A program made the translations under genes and the position numbers. Under the pieces are notes generated by a model that worked only from the letters and a program-made list of their open reading frames with translations, was not told the DNA's origin and did no database searches. A stretch of 34,496 nt of DNA from Candidatus Absconditabacterales bacterium (lineage in GTDB: Bacteria > Patescibacteriota > Gracilibacteria > Absconditabacterales > Absconditicoccaceae), in assembly GCA_937958645.1 (NCBI GenBank), contig CALGNI010000082.1:1-34496 (forward strand). The letters are read 5' to 3'. This document shows positions 1,965 to 20,903 of this stretch, in pieces (positions within the stretch are counted from its first letter, which is position 1; every line of letters starts with the position of its first letter).

Positions 1965-4178
1965 ATGTGAATTCGTGATGAAATACAAAACAACACAACT
2001 CAAAAAAAGAAAAGGTCTTGGAAGTTTTGGGTCTTGATGATCTTGTTGTTGGTTCTTATCGTTGCAGCTTTGTATCGATGGAACCAAAGTAAGCAAGATG
2101 ATGAGCATTGAGCGGCTGAAGAAGCTTATTTAGTGGGAATTGATGATGTGGTGAAAACTATTTCTGGAGATGGAAAGATCGTCGGGAATGATTTGGTTGA
2201 TATGAGTTTTGATGCCACAGCTAAGCTGACTGAGGTATTGGTGAAACCTTGAGATATTGTGAATCAGGGAGACTTGTTAGCAAGGATTGATAATTCATCA
2301 TATGTGAACAACCTCTCTAGAGCCCAAAACGCTCTTGCCCAAGCTCAATCAAGACTCGCAGAAGCCCAAAACCCTTTGTCTGGGACAGAACAGAGTCAGT
2401 TGGCAAAGCAAGGGGAGTTGGACTGGATAAATTATCAAGAACAAATTCTCAAGCTAGAAAATGAACTTTCAAAAGCTGAACAAAACCTCAAGACTCTTGA
2501 GATTTCTCAAGAAGAAAAAGAAACCATCTTGCGCAATGCTGTTGTGAGCAATGAGAATGCACTCAAGTCTGCGAGCTTGTGATTTGATGAGCAGGTGAAG
2601 CGTCTGGAGCTAGAACTCTTGCGTTTGGATAATGCAGTTGCGACTTCTGATCGCGCGATGAGACAACTTGATCAAGATATCATCGAAGCAGAAACTACCG
2701 ATGATCTCGAGTTGATCTGAGTGGAAGATGATGCAAGAACTACTCAGATGGAGGCTGATATCGTGAATACAAGCCAAGAGGTTAATCGCATCGTAGTTGA
2801 TCTCATGCAGCAAATGGATCTGATCATGTGAATCACTCCAGCAAATAGATATCTCAATGATAGCTATGAATCAAACATAGGAGCTAAAGATACGAGTCAA
2901 AAACGTTCTGTGGAAGCGAAGCGAAGAGAACTATGAATCGCTAAGAGCGCTGCCTCATTTGGATCAACATTTACTCAAGCACAATCAGATCAATATATCC
3001 AAGTCCTTGATCAGGCACGTGATCTAGCTCAAGAAATGATTCGTGTGATAGAAAATAGTAGTACATGAAATGCTTTGCCAGAAAGCCAACTCTCATCACG
3101 AAGATCGATCTTTACGAACTATCAGTCATCGATCAATCAAATAGAGTCTAGTCTAGAAGCAAAAATTCTCGCATTGGAACTCTCTAAACAGTCGATCAAT
3201 CGCTTGATCGATACTACTGACGACACGATCAATGAACAAGTCCGTGTCCTAAAACAACAAAAACAAGCAAGTGAAGCAGCTCATGAAGAGTTGCTCAAGG
3301 AAAAAGAGCTCAAACAAGAAGAGATCAAATCAACTAAAGATTCATTTGAAAACACCTTAGCCAATACCCAACAAGAAACAGCACTCAAAAAATCTGAACT
3401 CTCAAGTAGCTCGTCTCGTACTGCGATCGAATACGAATCAGCACTCCTAGATATTCAGTTTCTAAAAAATGAACTTATCCAAGCAAGAGAGCGTCATCAA
3501 GCCTCACTAGAATTATCAACGCTAGATCGTCTATCTAGAGCTAGTCCTTTGAGTGCTCAAGAACAACGTAGCCTAGCGCTTCAGATCGAAGACCGCCGTC
3601 TAGCCATCCAAGACGCTCAGATCCAACTCAGCAAAACTGAACTCAGAAGTCCTGTCCAGTGAACGGTGCTTTGAGTTGCTAATCTTGTGGGTGAGTATCC
3701 ACAAGCCAACTTCATGAGTATCGCAACCAAGGGCGCGAGATATATCGAGGTGTATATCGAAGAAGAAGAAGTAGGAAATATCAAAAGCGGGCAGGAGGTA
3801 TTGATCGGCCTAGACGCATTTCCTGATGAGACCTTCTCTGAGAAAGTCTACTATGTATCTTCTGCTGGTGAAAGAGATGCAAATGATATCGTAAAATATC
3901 AGGTACTAATTTCACTAGATACACCAGTAGCTTGAGCAAGATCTGAGATGACCATCAATGCAGAATTTGTAGAAGAAAAATTATCTAATGTGATCGCAAT
4001 CCCCTTGGAGTATGTTACTAAGCTAGATGGAAAAGATGTAGTGTATCTACCGTCTGATGATAACGAAGAAGGAGAAATCCGTGAAGTACAGCTTTGAATC
4101 AAAGATGAACAGAGCGTTCATGTATTGGAAGGACTGAAAGCAGGCCAGGAGATCGTGCTTCCTAAGGAGGAGGAGTAG
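1965..4178 (+). CDS. MacA/HlyD-type periplasmic adaptor with a very long coiled coil
   Basis: This is the membrane-fusion (adaptor) subunit of an ABC efflux system, 737 residues in table 25. A basic N-terminus leads into one membrane helix (about residues 23-38). A lipoyl-like half follows (VKPGDIVNQGDLLARID, about 91-107), then some 450 residues of Gln/Glu/Ala/Leu-rich coiled coil (about 110-560). The second lipoyl half begins at TELRSPVQ and leads into beta-barrel and membrane-proximal domains. E. coli MacA is about 370 residues, so the hairpin is greatly enlarged. ATG at 1953 is a possible alternative start; 1965 is preferred because it follows CCCC, like several other starts here. The ATPase and permeases downstream support an export role. 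Substrate unknown. Confidence 0.8.
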
Positions 4179-4560: not shown

Positions 4561-5265
<705 letters not shown>

Positions 5266-5270
5266 AAGTT

Positions 5271-6452
5271 ATGTTTAGCGAAAGATTGACATCAGCCTTT
5301 GAGACCTTGAGAGCCAACAAGCTCAGAACCATTTTGTCGATGCTAGGAATCGTGATAGGGGTATGGACGATAGCGATGGTAACCGCTGTGGGATCTGGAG
5401 TGGAGCAGCAGGTGCAAGACCAGTTTAAGACCTTATCTGTAAACAATCTCTTCGTGGCTCCTGATGGAGAAGATTCCAAACTTACCACTGAAGATGTAGA
5501 AATAATTGAAAAATCACCCTATGTCACGAGTGTCTCAGCCAACATCGATGGATCTTTCTTAGCAAGTAATAGTCTAAACTCAAATACTGAAACCTTCATC
5601 ACCCAGTGAGTGAAAGAAAACTATTTCGAGCAGTTCAATATGGAAATCGATGTAGGAAAGCTCTTTGAAGATGGTGATTCGACAGAAAGAGTAGCGGTGC
5701 TTTGAGTGAATATCGTAGAAGATCTCTTTGAGCTTGATGATCCGAGACAGGTACTGGGAGAAACGATTACCGTAAAGTCTAAAAAATTTCGTGTCATCTG
5801 AGTGCTAGAAGAGATAGGAGTGAGCTTTGGACCCTTTAGTTATGATAATACGATTTATTTGCCGTTATGAGCGACGAAGAGATTTTTGATCAAAGGAGAT
5901 CTGACTTCAGCGCTGAGTATGGTGATAGATGATGTAGAGAATATGGATGCAGCCAAAGATGATATATCAGCTCGTCTTAGGCAGGAGTACAATCTCAAAG
6001 ATGATGATACCGATGGGTTTATCCTTATCGATGCTGGTGCGACCATTGGTATCGCTACTCAGGTAGCTAAGGTACTGAGTTTCCTGTTGGTCGGTATTTC
6101 GATCTTTATCTTGATCGTTTCGGGGATCGGGATCATGAATGTGATGTTCGCAGGGGTAGCAGAAAGAACCAAAGAAATATGAATCTTGAAATCGATCTGA
6201 GCCACCAAAAAAGACATTCAATCGCAATTTTTGATCGAGGCAGTGCTAATTACCTTCTTGTCCTGACTATTGGGAGTGATCCTAGCAGAGTGAGTGATCT
6301 CTCTAGCGATCTACTTCGATGCACCGATCTCTAGGTCATTGTGGTGAGACGCGATGGCATTGCTGTTCGCTTGCCTCACATGAATTCTCTCCGGACGATA
6401 CCCAGCGGTGAGAGCATCAAATTTAGATCCTGTTGATGCATTGAGGACATAG
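5271..6452 (+). CDS. MacB/FtsX-type ABC transporter permease 1
   Basis: This 393-residue permease begins MFSERLTSAFETLRANKLRT, typical of MacB permeases. A first membrane helix (about 22-45) contains GIVIGVW. An extracytoplasmic MacB_PCD domain follows (about 46-260). Three C-terminal helices (about 268-385) include the FtsX motif GIGIMNVMFAGVAERTKEIG. The family C-terminal signature YPAVRASNLDPVDALR is complete. At least eight glycines are TGA. It follows the ATPase by 5 bp. A paralogue of identical length lies at 8363-9544, so the pump could use homo- or heterodimeric permeases. Its last 89 nt recur at 8211-8299 beyond the DKNYY gene. Confidence 0.9.
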
Positions 6453-6454
6453 GG
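6366..6454 (+). repeat. Proximal copy of an 89-bp direct repeat (3' end of permease 1)
   Basis: This stretch encodes the permease C-terminus from FACLTG to the TAG stop and 2 nt beyond. It matches 8211-8299 with 3 mismatches in 89 positions, all in the last 15 or so bases. The pair flanks the DKNYY gene. Confidence 0.9.
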
Positions 6455-6581
6455 TAGGATTAACGATTTTTAAAAGTCCTAATTGAGATCTCTCATAGTT
6501 TTTTCAGCTTCTTTGAATTTGTATAATTTAAAGCAATGTTTATACTTAATAAGTATGGTTTTAGCTTATTAATATAACACT

Positions 6582-8201
6582 ATGAGATCACTATTTTTTT
6601 GAGTAATTGCATTTTTTTATTTTCCTGTTTCTGCTCTTACGCCTGCATTCATGCCCGAAGTAGGCAATTATGCTTTAGATGAAAACTATGCTTGAGAACT
6701 TGAGCTTTCTCATTGATATGAATTTAGGCAGATTGATGAATCAGCGACAGAAATGAATTATAACTGAAATAGTTTATGAGTTTATAGTTGAGGTAATATA
6801 AGCAAGTTTGTGGAGTCTTCATTTACGTTTCCTATTAGAAAATCAAATCTCTTGATAACAAATGATGCTGTTTATATAGATTGAGAGTATCATGCATCGA
6901 TTGATGATACACCGATACTGGATTATAGAGATGGTTATATGGTTACTTCAAAATGAGTATTTAGATTTATTTCTGATTTATCAGGGACCAAGGATTGAGT
7001 GCGAGATAATAAAATTCATATTTTAAGAGTGCCAAATGTAGACCAAAATTCTTTTAAAATTTGGTCAAATGAAATTACATCAGATGTAAACCATGTTTAC
7101 CATAATAACTGAATTGTTGATTGATTAGAGTGATCGACTTTTGAATTACTCGCCTATCCTTATTTCAAAAGCAATTGAGAACTTTATGTTTGAAGACCAA
7201 GAAAGGAAGAATTTCAGATAGTAAGTGATGTTGATACTGAGTCATTTATTGTTTTATGAAACTGATACTCTAAAGATAAGAATCAAGTTTACTATACATA
7301 TGCATATAACTGAGCTGATGTCTGAATAACAATTTCGATAGATGCTGATGCAGATACGTTTGAGTTAACTAAGTCTAATAGTTACTACGCAAAAGATAAT
7401 GTTGCTGTTTATTATAAAGGATCGATTGTGTCAAATGAAGTTGACTCGTTTACGTCTTATGCTTGGCAATATTGAAAAGATTCAGTTAATTTATACTGCT
7501 TTGGAAATGTGGTTTCATGAGTGGATGTTAACACAATACAGTTAGTTCACTCTCCTTACGACAATAAGACTATTAAATATCTTAAAGATAAGAATAACGT
7601 CTATATAAGCACAGGAGAAAGCTGTAGAAAATACCTAGAATTAGATGGAGAAAGTTTCGAGTTGCTTACTTCTGGGTACTTCAAAGATAAGGATGTAGTT
7701 TATTTTGGAGGAGATAAAACTGAAGCAGAGGCGTCTACATTTGAAATTATTCAAGATCCTGAATGATCTGGTAGATTTTCTAAAGACGCATGATCTCTTT
7801 ATTATTTTTGAGAAAAAATCGATCAATTTGATGTAGATAGTTTTATTATTCATTGATACTGATACTTTACAGATGACTTTTGAGTATATTATATGAATAA
7901 TTCTTGAGGTATTGATAGCATTAAGTGAATAGATCAAGGTACTTTTGAAGTTATATGAGTCTGATACTTTAAAGATAAAAATCATGTGTATTTTCAAGAT
8001 GTTTACGGTGATGTTTTTGAAGTTGAATGAGCCGATTTGAATTCATTTAAAATCTTGATTGAATCACGTTTGTCTTTTGCTAACTACGATATGACTATGA
8101 CACCTACATATGCAAGTGATATAAATTCTGTTTATAAAGATTGAAAGATAATTGAATGAGCTGATCCGCTGTTGTTTGATGGAAATATTGACGATATTTA
8201 A
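6582..8201 (+). CDS. Secreted DKNYY-repeat protein
   Basis: This 539-residue protein has an N-terminal signal peptide (MRSLFFGVIAFFYFPVSA, cleavage likely near residue 18) and at least five copies of a repeat whose core is KDKNxVYY. Visible cores are KDKNQVYY, KDKNNVYI, KDKDVVYF, TDDFGVYY and KDKNHVYF, most preceded by an acidic D-x-x-T/S-F stretch. This fits the DKNYY family (Pfam DKNYY), which is extracytoplasmic and of unknown function. More than twenty glycines are TGA, among the heaviest use in the window, so the gene has long resided in a recoded genome. It is flanked by direct repeats of the permease 3' end and separates two permease paralogues, which looks like a later insertion into the efflux operon. 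Confidence 0.8.
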
Positions 8202-8210
8202 ATATAGATT

Positions 8211-8299
8211 TTCGCTTGCCTCACATGAATTCTCTCCGGACGATACCCAGCGGTGAGAGCATCAAATTTAGATCCTGTTGATGCGCTGAGGACTTAGGG
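8211..8299 (+). pseudogene. Detached second copy of the permease 1 3' end
   Basis: This is an 89-bp fragment of the permease C-terminal coding region plus stop codon, with no gene body in front of it. It begins 9 nt after the DKNYY stop. It corresponds to permease 1 and not to the downstream paralogue, whose own tail (about 9460-9544) is clearly different. It most likely marks the original junction between permease 1 and permease 2 before the DKNYY gene arrived. Confidence 0.85.
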
Positions 8300-8343
8300 G
8301 GAAAGGGAAAAAGAGAAAAAGAGAGAAAAAGAGAGAAAGAGAA
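8296..8343 (+). repeat. Polypurine tract (GAGAAA-type) before permease 2
   Basis: About 48 nt of uninterrupted G and A, built from GAGAAA and GAAAAA units, lie between the detached tail and permease 2. Shorter tracts of the same kind follow the stops at 4178, 18329 and 29005. Such tracts can slip during replication. Confidence 0.8.
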
Positions 8344-8362: not shown

Positions 8363-9544
8363 ATTTTCAGCGAAAGATTGCAGTCTGCTATATATACCTT
8401 CAAAGCCAACAAGCTGAGAACACTTTTGTCGTTGGTCTGAATTGTGATTGGAGTAATGACAACTGCATTGGTGACAGTTATTGGATCTGGAGTGGAGCAG
8501 AAAGTGCAGGATGAGTTCAAGACATTGAACGTAAGTACCTTGTTTATATTTCCAGATGGCAAGGATCCTAAACTTTCTACAAATGACACGAAAATCTTGG
8601 AAGAATCACCGTATGTAACAAGTGTTTCAGCATCGATTGGTGAGTATTTTTTGGTTAGCAACAGCCTTACCACTGAGGTAGAAACATATTTTACCCGCGG
8701 TGTAAAAGAGTCATATTTTGAGCATCATAATGTAGAAGTCGATGTGGGGGATCTTATAAGTGATGGAGAATCTACGGATAAGATAGCAGTAATTTGATCG
8801 AAGGTCTTCGAGGATCTGTTTGATAATGATGAAATTAGCGATGCTCTGTGAGAGACTATCACCTTAGAATCAAAAAAATATCACGTAATTTGAGTGTTAA
8901 ATGAAGTTTGACAGAACTCTGGACCTGACTTTGATGATGTTATTTTCTTACCTATTTGAACTACCAGAAGATATCTTATAAAAGATGCCATACCGGCATT
9001 TACCGTCTTGATTGATGCTGTGGAAAATATGAATGCAACCAAACAAGACATCACAAAACGTCTTAGAAAAGAACATAAGCTCAAAGAAAATGATCCGGAT
9101 GGTTTTAGGTTTTTTGACGGGGGTGAAATGATCACTACCTATACTGAACTTACTGCAATGGTAAGATTCTTGTTGTTAGCGATCTCAGTCTTTATTTTGA
9201 TAGTATCAGGTGTGGGGATCATGAATGTGATGTTTGCTGGTGTAGCAGAAAGAACCAAAGAAATATGAATTCTTAAATCGATCTGAGCGACCAAAAAAGA
9301 TATTCAATCGCAGTTTATGACCGAAGCGATTCTGATTACTTTGTTCTCAGGGATCTTGGGACTTGTGCTCGCAGAAGTGATTATCACCATCGCTATGCAA
9401 TTGGACCTACCAGTCACTCTTTCTAGATCATTTTGATGAGATGTGATGGCCCTTGGATTTGCTTGTCTCACGGGTGTTTTTGCGGGTTGGTATCCAGCGG
9501 TGAGGGCTTCGAGTCTGGATCCTGTGGATGCGTTGAGGAGTTAA
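8363..9544 (+). CDS. MacB/FtsX-type permease 2, apparent ATT start
   Basis: This paralogue of permease 1 has the same architecture and exactly the same length (393 residues) if translation begins at ATT 8363-8365. That codon aligns with the ATG of permease 1 (IFSERLQSA beside MFSERLTSA). A TAA lies 9 nt upstream in frame, and the first downstream ATG (8456) would delete most of the first membrane helix. GTG 8444 is another weak option. Body and C-terminal motifs are intact (GVGIMNVMFAGVAERTKEIG, YPAVRASSLDPVDALR), and TGA glycines sit at the same sites in both paralogues, so recoding predates the duplication. The gene could use ATT, be poorly expressed, or be at the start of decay. Confidence 0.85.
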
Positions 9545-16430: not shown

Positions 16431-18329
16431 ATGAAAACACTTCTTTGACTTTGTAGTATGATTCTTGTAGTAGGAATAACGTTTGCAGCTAATTCTCCTG
16501 TTTTGGAGTTGTTTGAAGAAAATGAGGCAGTATGAAACGTAGAGGTACTTGCAGATGATGCATGAAAAGAAATTGGTAGAGAAAGAGTAGTTCCTCGTCC
16601 AATTCCAAAGTCTGCAACCATAGCTTCGTTGCCTGAAGAATATGTAGCTGTACATTATCTTTTTACGATAGGAGCAACAAAGTACGCTTCAGTTGATAAT
16701 TTCCTGGGAGATAATTCAATCACCAGAGAACAAGCGGCCAAACTTCTGGTAAAGCGAGCTACACAGGAGGAAATTGAAAAGAAGGTAAGTGTGTCGTGTG
16801 ATTTTACTGATATCGGAGAAGGACAAATGGATGAAAGCCTAAGAGCTTCTGTTTTGGAGTCATGCGAGCTTGGGATCTTTCGTGGATTTAATAATAAATT
16901 TTCTCCGCAGTCTTCGTTGATTAGAGGACATTTTTTCTTAGCGGTATTGAGAATCCTATGACATGATGTGCCAGAAACTTGAGTGTATGAAAAGGCCAAA
17001 GAGGTTTGACTCACGACAGTAACTAGAAAAAATTTCGCATATGATGCTACCATTAGCAGGACTGATGCAAGCCTAATCTTGCGAAGAGCAGCCCAAAAAA
17101 GAAGTGACCTCGAAGAGTTTCTAAAATCTCCGAGATCTGATGTGAGTTTACCACTCCCGCGTACATGAGGATGATCTGATGATCTAAGCGACATCCTTGC
17201 TGATCTGTATGGTGATTCGGCAGAAACAGAGTCATTATCATTGATTTGAGCGAGCATAGCCTCAAAAACTACCTCTTGAAGTGCTAGACCATCATCATGA
17301 ACTCCACTCAAATGAGGAGAAGTTGATGATAATGTGTTATTTGAAGATTTTGTGGAGTATTATGAGGAAGCTCAAGAAAAATTTGGAGATGCATTTACCA
17401 AGATCGATGTTTGAGGGAGATTTTATCTTCATGATGCGGGAAAATCTTGAGTGCTAGGTGGAACAATGCTTAGAATCATGGATTCAGAGGGGAAAGAATA
17501 CCTTTTGTCTTTGGATAATGACGGAGAATATTACTTCTATCCATCTTCATACTATGACGCTGATGATCAGGTAAATGCGGATCAATATACAGTGAGTTTC
17601 GAATATGCATGAGTATCGTATGAAGAAACTTATTCTAGCACACAAGCAGTCCGAGAACTACCTCCAGTCTCATGATCTGTGAATACAGAAGCCAAGAAAC
17701 TTCAATTGGCTTTCGTGATCGATACTACAGGATCTATGAGTGACCAAATAAATAAAATAAAGGAAACGATTCAATCGGTTTCCCAAAGAGTGAAAGAATG
17801 AGCTGATGGAATCGATTTGGAATATGGTTTAGTTGCTTATAAAGATAGAAGTGATCGTTATCTTACTTCTTCATATCAATTTACTGATGATCTAGAGGCG
17901 TATCAAACCTATCTTGATAAGCTTTCTGCTCAGTGAGGAGGAGACTATGAGGAGGATATGAATGCATGATTGGAAGAAGCAATGGAGTTTCTTCAGCGAT
18001 CAGATGAACAGGATACATACTGAATCTTGATCTTAGTCGCTGATGCGCCACCACATATGGACTACAAGCAAAGCTATGATTATAGGGTAGCGATGCTAAG
18101 AGCGGTAGAGCAAGGGGTGAAGATATTTCCTTTGGCAAGTTCTGGTTTGGATAATACCGTAGGAGAACTCATCTTTAGACAAATAGCCCTCATCACCAAC
18201 GCAACATACATCTTTATCACTAAAGGAGCAAATGGAGGAACTGACTTTCATGTAGATGAACAGTCTTACTCAGTTGAGAGTTTGGACGACTTGGTGGTAG
18301 ATATTGTGTTGAGAGAGATACAGGAGTAA
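16431..18329 (+). CDS. Secreted surface protein with SLH and von Willebrand A domains
   Basis: This 632-residue protein has a signal peptide (MKTLLGLCSMILVVGITFAA). One or two S-layer-homology-like modules follow (about 70-230; ITREQAAKLLVKRA and ISRTDASLILRRAA fit the SLH helix). Then come a Ser/Gly/Pro linker, a middle beta domain (about 310-415), and a C-terminal vWA domain (about 425-630). The vWA has a complete-looking MIDAS start DTTGSMS (from D431) and VADAPPH (D538). SLH modules normally anchor to wall polymers and vWA domains bind ligands through a divalent metal, so a cell-surface adhesin is a reasonable inference for an episymbiont. An in-frame ATG at 16371 is the alternative start. 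Confidence 0.8.
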
Positions 18330-18359: not shown

Positions 18360-18372
18360 TAATTACTTGCCT

Positions 18373-18978
18373 ATGAAATCAGAGTGAAGCGATGGGTTGA
18401 ATAGATCCAAGGAATATAAACCGAAGGGAATGAGAAGAAAGATTGCCAAGAAGCTTGCTTCGACGGTAATCATTTATTTTGAGTTTTTTGCTATGCTTAT
18501 CCAGACTTGAAGACGATCATCTACTGCTGATCGAGAACTCCATTTGACATCAATCTTAACTGACGAATCTCTTTGCACTGCTGCGATGGGAATCGTTTTT
18601 GTTGATGATGAGCTTGTGCTTTCTCATATGAACAGAGGGCGAGATCTTCCTGGGGGACATATTGAGTTGGGTGAGTCGGTCTTGGATTGATTAGCTCGTG
18701 AGATAGACGAAGAGGCTGGAGTGAGGGATTTTGAGGCAAGCTTGTTCGCAGAAAGAAAACTCATCAATCATACGCAAAAGATAAATAAGGCAACAGGTAA
18801 ACCCTATCCAGCGATATCGTACATATCATATTATCTTGTAGAGGCTAAACAGTTCGACATAGACCCTTCTTGTGAAGAAATTATCGCTGCTAAAGCGTTT
18901 TCTTTGGCAGATGAGGAGGCAATGAATTGTAGAGCGAGGGATGTGATATTGATGGGGGCAGCGATGAGGAGATGATAG
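18373..18978 (+). CDS. Nudix hydrolase
   Basis: This 201-residue enzyme should hydrolyse a nucleoside diphosphate linked to another moiety. The Nudix box is complete from G95 to V117: GHIELGE, then seven residues, then REIDEEAGV, with metal ligands E110, E113 and E114. The preceding LSHMNRGRDLPGG segment is typical. The N-terminal 60 residues are basic with a hydrophobic stretch (about 28-43), unusual for the family, so an internal ATG (for example codon 20 or 41) cannot be excluded. The gene ends AGA-TGA-TAG, giving a C-terminal glycine in table 25. Its last 111 nt are repeated exactly at 19919-20029, after the next gene. Confidence 0.85.
18867..18977 (+). repeat. Proximal copy of a 111-bp direct repeat (3' end of the Nudix gene)
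   Basis: This covers the coding end from about SCEEIIAAK to the second base of the stop codon. It is identical, base for base by eye, to 19919-20029. Confidence 0.95.
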
Positions 18979-19064
18979 ATAGAATTACAGAAGAGGGAGA
19001 AAGTAAAAATTGAAATTATCTAAAAAATCGCTAACCTAATGTTAATTTTAATTTATACCTTACT

Positions 19065-19898
19065 ATGAGAAAATATCTTTTATTACTTAGTGCTCCAATA
19101 TTGCTTTGATCTGTTTATGCTATTGATCTTTTATTAGCATCATATTATGAGTCAGGTAATGAAATTTGTCGAGCTTATTGAGCTGGTTGATGAACTTGTT
19201 TTGAGTTTGAGCCTTGAGATGATGTTACGTTGCTCAAGAATGATAGTGGTGGTCATACGTGATATGCATTAGTGAATAATAAGCTATATATAGAGGGAGA
19301 GTTTTTCGCAGATGAAAATTATATCTTACATACAAATCAGATTTTAGAATATGATTGAGGCATCTATATTAGTTGAAGAATTACTGATATTTCTCCTAAG
19401 AATTTTTCTTATGAAGGAGATTGGTGGATAAGTGCAGAAAACTGAGTCTTTAAGTGAAGCTCTTTATTTGATGCTAGTCTATCAAGTATTGATACGGTTA
19501 TTGACTGATATTTCATAACCTCTGGTTGAAAAATCTTCTATGCTCGTGAATGAAGAGTTCCAGGAAATGCTAATGACTTTGTTTCAATTTCATTTGAGAA
19601 TCGTAGTAGATTATACACGGATTGATTTTATATTTATCAGATTGATCTTAATATGGGGCTGTCAGATTTAACTTTTTTTGTAAAGTGATTTACAATTTCA
19701 TTGAGTGACTTTGTAGTTTCAGTCTTAGATGAGTTTATTTGAGAAAGAATCAACGATTCTAATAGGGATAGAGTTTTGGATAAAATAGATGACTTATTGA
19801 TTCTGGAGTCAGAAGATGATTATGGGAATCATATGGATTTATCTGAAAAACAGATGAAAATTCAGTATTTGCTATTATACATAAAAGAGCATATATAA
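19065..19898 (+). CDS. Secreted DKNYY-like protein
   Basis: This 277-residue protein begins with a signal peptide (MRKYLLLLSAPILLGSVYA). Its body repeats short beta units around D-xx-Y/F and GKIFYA, for example ADENYILH, DTVIDGYFITSGGKIFYAR and RLYTDGFYIYQ. These resemble degenerate DKNYY repeats and the larger protein at 6582-8201. A helical, acidic tail follows (about 205-277). Glycines are mostly TGA. It lies between two copies of the Nudix 3' end, exactly as the first DKNYY gene lies between two copies of a permease 3' end. The family call is weaker than for the first gene. The start ACT-ATG-AGA also resembles the first gene's start. Confidence 0.6.
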
Positions 19899-19918
19899 AG
19901 CTATTTAGTTAGATTTTT

Positions 19919-20030
19919 TTCTTGTGAAGAAATTATCGCTGCTAAAGCGTTTTCTTTGGCAGATGAGGAGGCAATGAATTGTAGAGCGAGGGATGTGATA
20001 TTGATGGGGGCAGCGATGAGGAGATGATAA
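19919..20030 (+). pseudogene. Detached second copy of the Nudix 3' end
   Basis: A 111-bp copy of the Nudix C-terminal coding sequence, without a gene body, begins about 20 nt after the stop of the DKNYY-like gene. Its stop reads TAA where the intact gene has TAG, the first difference between the copies. It probably marks the original 3' end of the Nudix gene before insertion. Confidence 0.92.
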
Positions 20031-20093: not shown

Positions 20094-20121
20094 TTGACTT
20101 CACTTTCAACTTTCCTATAAA
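20094..20121 (+). promoter_or_regulatory. Promoter of the rplJ-rplL transcript
   Basis: TTGACT (20094-20099) and TATAAA (20116-20121) are spaced by 16 nt. Transcription would start near 20128, giving a leader of about 150 nt. Confidence 0.65.
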
Positions 20122-20139
20122 CCACCTTATATCCAAAGA

Positions 20140-20238
20140 AAGTGAGTAGCTAATGCATAAAGCTCACCGAGGAAATACTCAAGTTTGACCTAGTGTTGAG
20201 CTCCTGATGTACTTCTTTGTTGAAGTTCTTTTTTTTTG
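20140..20238 (+). promoter_or_regulatory. Ribosomal protein L10 leader with attenuator
   Basis: The leader before rplJ has the layout of the L10 leader, in which L10(L12)4 represses its own mRNA. GTGAGT (20142-20147) pairs with GCTCAC (20162-20167). A CGAGGAAATA internal loop and a CTCAA/TTGAG stem closed by TCC suggest the kink-turn region. Downstream, ACTTC/GAAGT (20211-20215 with 20222-20226) and a T run form a terminator 40 nt before the rplJ start. The assignment rests on position and shape. Confidence 0.6.
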
Positions 20239-20279
20239 GAAAAATACTTTGAATTTTTTATCTACATAATCTGACTTAC

Positions 20280-20903
20280 ATGGCATTATTGAAGGATGAC
20301 AAGAAAAATCTTGCTGCGGAGTACGTCAAAATGATGGAAAGCGGAAAGAATGTGGTGGTAATAAAGCACACATGAATCCCTGTAAATGAAATCAATGAAA
20401 TGAGAATGTGAGTGAGCGAAAATGACGGAAATGTTAAGATCGTAAAAAAGAGAGTGCTACTAAAGGGGATTGAAGGGAAGTATGAAGGATTATCTTTGGA
20501 TATGATTGAAGGAAGCAGTATTGCTTTGCTTACAAGCAATAACGAAGATGATGAGCATGCTCCATTGAAAGCAATCAATAAATTGAATAAGAAATGGAAG
20601 AAAGATAAAGCTGAGTTTGGTGTAGAGTTTATCTGAGGATGGTACGATTGAGCAGTTTGGAAAGACTGAGGATTCGTGTCTGAGCTAGCAAACTTGCCAA
20701 GCAAGGAAGAATTGATCGGAAAATTCTTGTTTATGTTGAATCACCCTGTTTCATCATTTGCTAGAGTCTTGAAGGCGATAGCGGATAAAGATGGAGTAGT
20801 GGAAGAAGAAGCTCCGGCTGCAGTAGCAGAAGAAGCTCCGGCAGAAGAAGCAAAAGAAGAACCAGTAGCAGAGGAAGCAAAAGAAGAGCCAGCAGCAGAA
20901 TAG
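20280..20903 (+). CDS. rplJ: 50S ribosomal protein L10
   Basis: This 207-residue protein (uL10) forms the base of the ribosomal stalk and carries the L7/L12 dimers. Recognisable features are the N-terminal helix and KNVVVIKHTGIPV strand, VKIVKKRVLLKGI (the L10 KNTL-type segment), the conserved LANLPSKEELIGK, and the stalk helix. The C-terminal tail (about 175-207) is an unusual Ala/Glu repeat (EEAPA, EEAKEEPVA) beyond the usual L10 length. Several glycines are TGA. The start ATG 20280 follows CTGACTTAC with no Shine-Dalgarno. It precedes rplL as in most bacteria and is probably regulated by the L10 leader upstream. Confidence 0.92.

Follow-up and report, generated by a model that had tools for sequence, protein, structure and literature searches.

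The last 111 bp of a complete Nudix hydrolase gene are repeated behind a gene for a secreted-type orphan protein in the window, which is the whole stretch of DNA that was analysed (34,496 nt) and corresponds to contig C82 of a 1.55-Mb MAG of 105 contigs. The same arrangement at positions 6366-8300 of the window and on contigs C40 and C38 turns a single curiosity into a pattern, with repeats flanking four of the six DKNYY or DKNYY-like genes in the sampled half of the genome, when the orphan is counted. These loci look like foreign DNA captured through a single recombination, not through a transposon. Insertion-duplication by a single (Campbell-type) crossover is the best reading of the Nudix-type loci, and we hold it with about even confidence.

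Structure of the Nudix locus

TGA is read as glycine in this genome (the SR1/Gracilibacteria code), with in-frame TGA codons throughout long conserved genes, rpoB and rpoC among them. The reading frames were open under translation table 25, and the Nudix and cargo genes were broken under table 11. The locus comprises the following features.

18493-18978, + strand: host gene A, a complete 161-aa Nudix hydrolase gene (TGA = Gly) with the stop codon TAG (ORF, Pfam, Nudix box)
18867-18977, + strand: repeat copy 1, the 3′ end of the Nudix gene through the TA of its stop codon at 18976-18978 (alignment)
18978-19918, + strand: 941-bp insert with a GC content of 0.298 versus 0.373 for the window, without terminal inverted repeats
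19065-19898, + strand: cargo gene for a 277-aa secreted-type orphan protein with a signal-peptide-like N terminus (ORF)
19919-20029, + strand: repeat copy 2, an orphan Nudix 3′ end running to a TAA stop at 20028-20030 (alignment)
20115-20243, + strand: L10 leader, RF00557 (Rfam)

The initial annotation had described a complete Nudix gene, a cargo gene between two exact 111-bp copies of the Nudix 3′ end, and a divergence of the copies at the final stop-codon base, all of which was borne out. Under code 25 the product of 18493-18978 carries a perfect Nudix box (GHIELGESVLDGLAREIDEEAGV, pattern GX5EX7REUXEEXGU), and the Pfam NUDIX match of 1.5e-9 was scored on the longer ORF 18367-18978. The two copies lie on the same strand with a start-to-start distance of 1052 bp, align without gaps at 111/111 identical positions, and diverge from the third position of the stop onwards (TAG versus TAA). 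This repeat is the longest exact direct repeat of the window, the second longest being 74 bp, and its sequence is present in only two copies across the 1.55-Mb assembly. The 0/111 mismatches are compatible with either a recent event or ongoing gene conversion. The cargo gene is the sole gene of the insert, and the L10 leader together with rplJ, which begins downstream of it at 20280 (Pfam Ribosomal_L10), represents the resident sequence to the right of the insertion. The proposal that recombination between the repeats would delete the cargo and spare the Nudix gene also held, as a crossover between the copies would remove 1,052 bp and keep the Nudix protein unchanged, its gene now ending in TAA. 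Among 59 relatives, neither a Nudix orthologue nor an empty Nudix site was found.

The cargo had been called secreted and DKNYY-like, and only the first half of this description, in the form of the signal-peptide-like N terminus, stood. No Pfam family matched the 277-aa protein, which stayed below the PF13644 score of >25 bits used as the threshold for membership of the DKNYY family. Alignment with a profile of the DKNYY proteins of the genus by hhalign was insignificant (E 0.044, probability 1.2%), the aligned part being in register with the DKNYY period. With these two results the DKNYY-like identity is unproven, and the protein appears remotely DKNYY-like at best, if at all. The search for relatives in GTDB and viral contigs returned none, and the single-sequence AlphaFold model was unusable (pLDDT 37). 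Consequently, we treated the protein as a secreted orphan, which is possibly a decayed DKNYY-type protein.

Repeats at other DKNYY loci

A search with the PF13644 profile located DKNYY genes at five loci in the home genome. Three of the four repeat-flanked cargos are PF13644 members, the 277-aa protein being the one without a significant match. A sister case in the window involves a permease gene.

5271-6452, + strand: host gene A, a MacB/FtsX-type permease (ORF, Pfam)
6366-6455, + strand: repeat copy 1, ending 3 nt past the stop codon (alignment)
6582-8201, + strand: cargo gene for a 539-aa secreted DKNYY-family protein (PF13644 3.6e-45)
8211-8300, + strand: repeat copy 2, an orphan permease 3′ end (alignment)

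This 90-bp repeat consists of 74 bp of exact identity followed by three synonymous mismatches (GCA/GCG, TTG/CTG, and ACA/ACT), and copy 2 is followed by a paralogous permease gene (8378-9544). No DKNYY gene was present behind the permease orthologues in the genomes G004 and G011.

On contig C40 (L022), a DKNYY gene is followed by a second copy of the final 93 bp of a carotenoid biosynthesis gene, 82 of them exact. A terminator-like hairpin follows copy 1, and diverged coding similarity extends past the repeat at the left edge of copy 2 (SIKKPT versus DIKKPS). In genome G003, only 23 bp separate the convergent carotenoid and ubiA genes, and no DKNYY gene is present at this site. In the home genome, the surroundings of ubiA on contig C3 contain a third, diverged copy of the carotenoid gene end (88% identity), a Y1 transposase-like gene, and a short sequence similar to the 3′ tail of the DKNYY gene on C40.

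240-322, 672-723, 728-1351 of L085 (C3): carotenoid gene-end copy and DKNYY 3′ tail, beside the Y1 transposase-like gene and ubiA

The right flank TAGGAG is common to carotenoid copies 2 and 3 and is missing from copy 1. Taken together, these remains suggest that genes were added more than once at the carotenoid site; since C40 and C3 are unjoined in the assembly, we infer the order of these events.

On contig C38 (L021), a DKNYY gene lies between 61-bp repeats of 93% identity at an intergenic site after a methyltransferase gene, and this repeat is not an obvious gene end. Contig C19 stops in a repeat directly behind its DKNYY gene, whose end is cut by a 139-bp sequence that ends three contigs (L022 6529-6667, L023 8711-8849, and L085 1-139) and is probably the edge of a repeated mobile element. 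At the C22 DKNYY locus no flanking repeat was seen. The host thus differs at each of the four flanked loci: the Nudix gene, the FtsX permease, the carotenoid gene, and the intergenic site after the methyltransferase. In all three coding cases (three of the four loci), the right edge of the repeat lies close to the end of the host stop codon, at -1, +3, and 0 nt, and the second copy begins 9-48 nt behind the cargo stop.

The enrichment of flanked genes was computed against the sampled part of the home genome, which comprised 771 kb (about half) and 642 non-overlapping ORFs of at least 100 aa. Many other repeat pairs of this genome are dispersed REP-like repeats, and they were filtered out before flanking repeats were counted; one such family, with the core CCGTCGAAGCAAGCTTC, is intergenic on L094, L099, and L101. 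The remaining unique flanking repeats enclose around 11-30 genes, depending on the counting. Given these values, flanking of four of six genes has a post hoc P of about 7e-7 to 5e-5, again by the counting of enclosed genes, and flanking of three of five, with the orphan left out, has a post hoc P of 4e-5 to 9e-4.

Further repeat structures were observed in the home genome. On L104 (C13), a 59-bp repeat of the signal region of a PKD-domain gene (16464-16522 and 19208-19266) surrounds an 802-aa secreted repeat protein as a mirror-image case, with two mismatches, both synonymous, and diverged coding similarity beyond both repeat edges. Doubled terminator-like hairpins near dnaK and pnp (L130 (C43), 8309-8342 and 9343-9377; L131 (C44), 2373-2418 and 3199-3244) surround an accessory gene and a KilA-N-like gene. 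On L114 (C25), 54-bp direct repeats of 87% identity (1421-1473 and 4668-4719) enclose a tyrosine recombinase, a methyltransferase, and a Nudix gene.

Flanking repeats were rare at 57 (17 + 40) DKNYY loci in further genomes of this class, so their frequency in the home genome is unusual or recent. They were clear in G165 only and weaker in G200, and those in G067 and G022 look like paralogue or relic structures. In G165 (L214, 4425-4491 and 5263-5329 on the reverse complement of the locus), the DKNYY gene lies just upstream of groES, and each of the two genes has its own copy of a duplicated 67-bp promoter that contains a CIRCE-like hairpin. Judged by this promoter, heat shock may control the DKNYY gene. 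In the complete genome G009 (426 kb), the stretches examined contained few such repeats, mostly inside genes or apparently between paralogues. DKNYY searches gave no matches on phages and two weak matches in plasmid records.

Origin of the repeats

Terminal inverted repeats beyond chance and common insert ends were absent from the four inserts, each of which holds one gene and no integrase or recombinase, and the longest string common to the four repeats is 6-8 bp, which amounts to no common motif. The inverted repeats or conserved ends and fixed short target duplication of DDE/HUH transposons are therefore missing, the repeats being 61-111 bp, and so are the internal integrase and shared core site of integrase-borne elements. 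What is found is the structure of insertion-duplication, i.e. direct repeats of a resident segment that form one complete gene and one truncated copy.

We propose that a short donor DNA from a related strain would have carried the secreted cargo gene together with the 3′ end of the gene preceding it there. This piece would enter the cell, probably as a recircularised fragment, and a single crossover within the corresponding 3′ end of the resident copy would yield an intact hybrid host gene, the cargo, an orphan gene-end copy, and the resident flank, in that order. Recombination between the copies could reverse the process. The genes comEC and dprA, which serve DNA uptake and recombination, are present in the home genome, and Ku was not found there. 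We infer the donor, the circle, the role of competence, and the direction of events, including that at the Nudix locus, where neither a donor genome nor an empty site was found.

Under a single crossover, identity would stop at the stop codon where the coding ends of donor and resident are similar and the sequence beyond differs, and the repeat edges at -1, +3, and 0 nt fit a homology ending with the coding sequence. The synonymous mismatches (three in the permease, two on L104) and the diverged coding edges at C40 and C13 make the copies look like two alleles rather than one sequence duplicated in place, which is suggestive given the few differing bases, the exact 111-bp pair being uninformative. 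Against a single crossover count the homologies of around 60-110 bp, which are short for RecA recombination, the C38 repeat, which is not an obvious gene end, and the right edge of the insert, which always lies 9-48 nt behind the cargo stop and is not predicted by a random fragment end. Moreover, a single crossover requires a donor in which the cargo already followed the same host gene, so it explains the spread of the arrangement better than its first origin.

A very long target-site duplication, which we consider improbable though it survives best among the alternatives, would involve a staggered cut of around 60-110 nt by a putative machinery, insertion of the cargo, and fill-in to create the repeats; insertions would survive where the duplication restores a gene end. 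Such a process would produce the repeat-cargo-repeat order directly, without a pre-arranged donor, and it suits the different hosts and lengths, the perfect identity at the Nudix locus, the 67-bp promoter copy of G165, and the short terminator duplications at dnaK and pnp. However, it needs an unknown enzyme at loci with no inverted repeats, shared ends, or transposase, the repeat length varies, it does not predict the repeat edge at the stop codon in three of three coding cases, and diverged coding homology extends beyond the repeat at C40 and C13.

Local copying, in which the cargo already stood behind gene A and a replication template switch copied the 3′ end of A behind it, is somewhat less probable still. 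The terminator-like hairpin after copy 1 at C40 looks like that of a resident end of gene A, and the start of the copy just behind the cargo stop at every locus also suits such a switch. However, related genomes lack a cargo behind the permease and carotenoid genes, the TAGGAG flank of carotenoid copies 2 and 3 is absent from copy 1, and there is no reason for local copying to recur behind DKNYY genes.

Site-specific gene cassettes that use gene 3′ ends as attachment sites for an integrase encoded elsewhere are very unlikely. Restoration of a gene 3′ end by a carried copy is the hallmark of integrase attachment sites, and the genome encodes two tyrosine recombinases outside the four inserts, one of them within the L114 element; nevertheless, the four repeats lack a common motif and none of the inserts encodes an integrase. 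Least probable is an assembly artefact of the short-read MAG, as the copies at the sister loci are imperfect, both junctions would have to be invented, and the assembler appears to break contigs at repeats longer than 111 bp, three of them stopping at the common 139-bp sequence, even though 111 bp is close to assembly k-mer sizes and the copies have no mismatch.

Comparison with known systems

Integrase elements are known at gene 3′ ends, as for e14 and phage 21 in icd and for tRNA islands. Like these elements, the loci described here have a carried end that keeps the host gene intact, flanking direct repeats, and synonymous differences. Unlike them, they have no integrase, no shared core, and a new host gene each time.

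It is a tentative and rather doubtful generalisation that Gracilibacteria-type cells hold recombinase-free single-gene cassettes for secreted repeat proteins, which carry a changing host gene-end or promoter homology arm. If this is true, each insertion would spare the host gene and create repeats for excision and further moves. The pattern bears on how small-genome, partner-dependent CPR bacteria gain new surface or secreted genes without obvious mobile elements. A gene-end-duplicating insertion is a readable scar, and a scan for scars of this kind could uncover recently gained genes, the sites they target, and the preferred cargo, and could test whether transformation drives such gains.

The mechanism class is already known, and its role in forming four of the six DKNYY-type loci of a single genome appears to be undescribed. 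A limited literature search found no report that it recurs naturally at genes for secreted repeat proteins in a CPR genome and no mention of PF13644 in the open literature, "DKNYY" occurring in a single open paper on another subject. One-anchor gene addition was proposed for the T6SS immunity-gene arrays of V. cholerae (PMC5361080). Like homology-facilitated illegitimate recombination (HFIR) and these displacement arrays, the present loci show one homologous anchor and a gene added beside older remains, namely the DKNYY tail and the gene-end copy on C3. HFIR usually deletes resident DNA, whereas the resident end is duplicated here, and unlike the V. cholerae arrays, the DKNYY-type loci show no toxin-immunity pair.

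The closest structural parallel comes from conjugation in E. coli (PMC3240628), where 56 of 60 clones contained the duplication product. In the 14 clones that were sequenced, the insertion lay between duplications of the homologous end, 109-950 bp in length. The authors explained the product by one crossover with a circular molecule that had been shortened and had probably recircularised following degradation. Both systems share the order of host gene, insert, and truncated gene-end duplicate, with duplicates from about 109 bp, as well as the lack of a recombinase and of a fixed site. In contrast to the E. coli case, the repeats described here (61-111 bp) are at the short end of that range or below it, and the inserts are natural, carry single genes, and recur at DKNYY-type genes in one uncultured genome.
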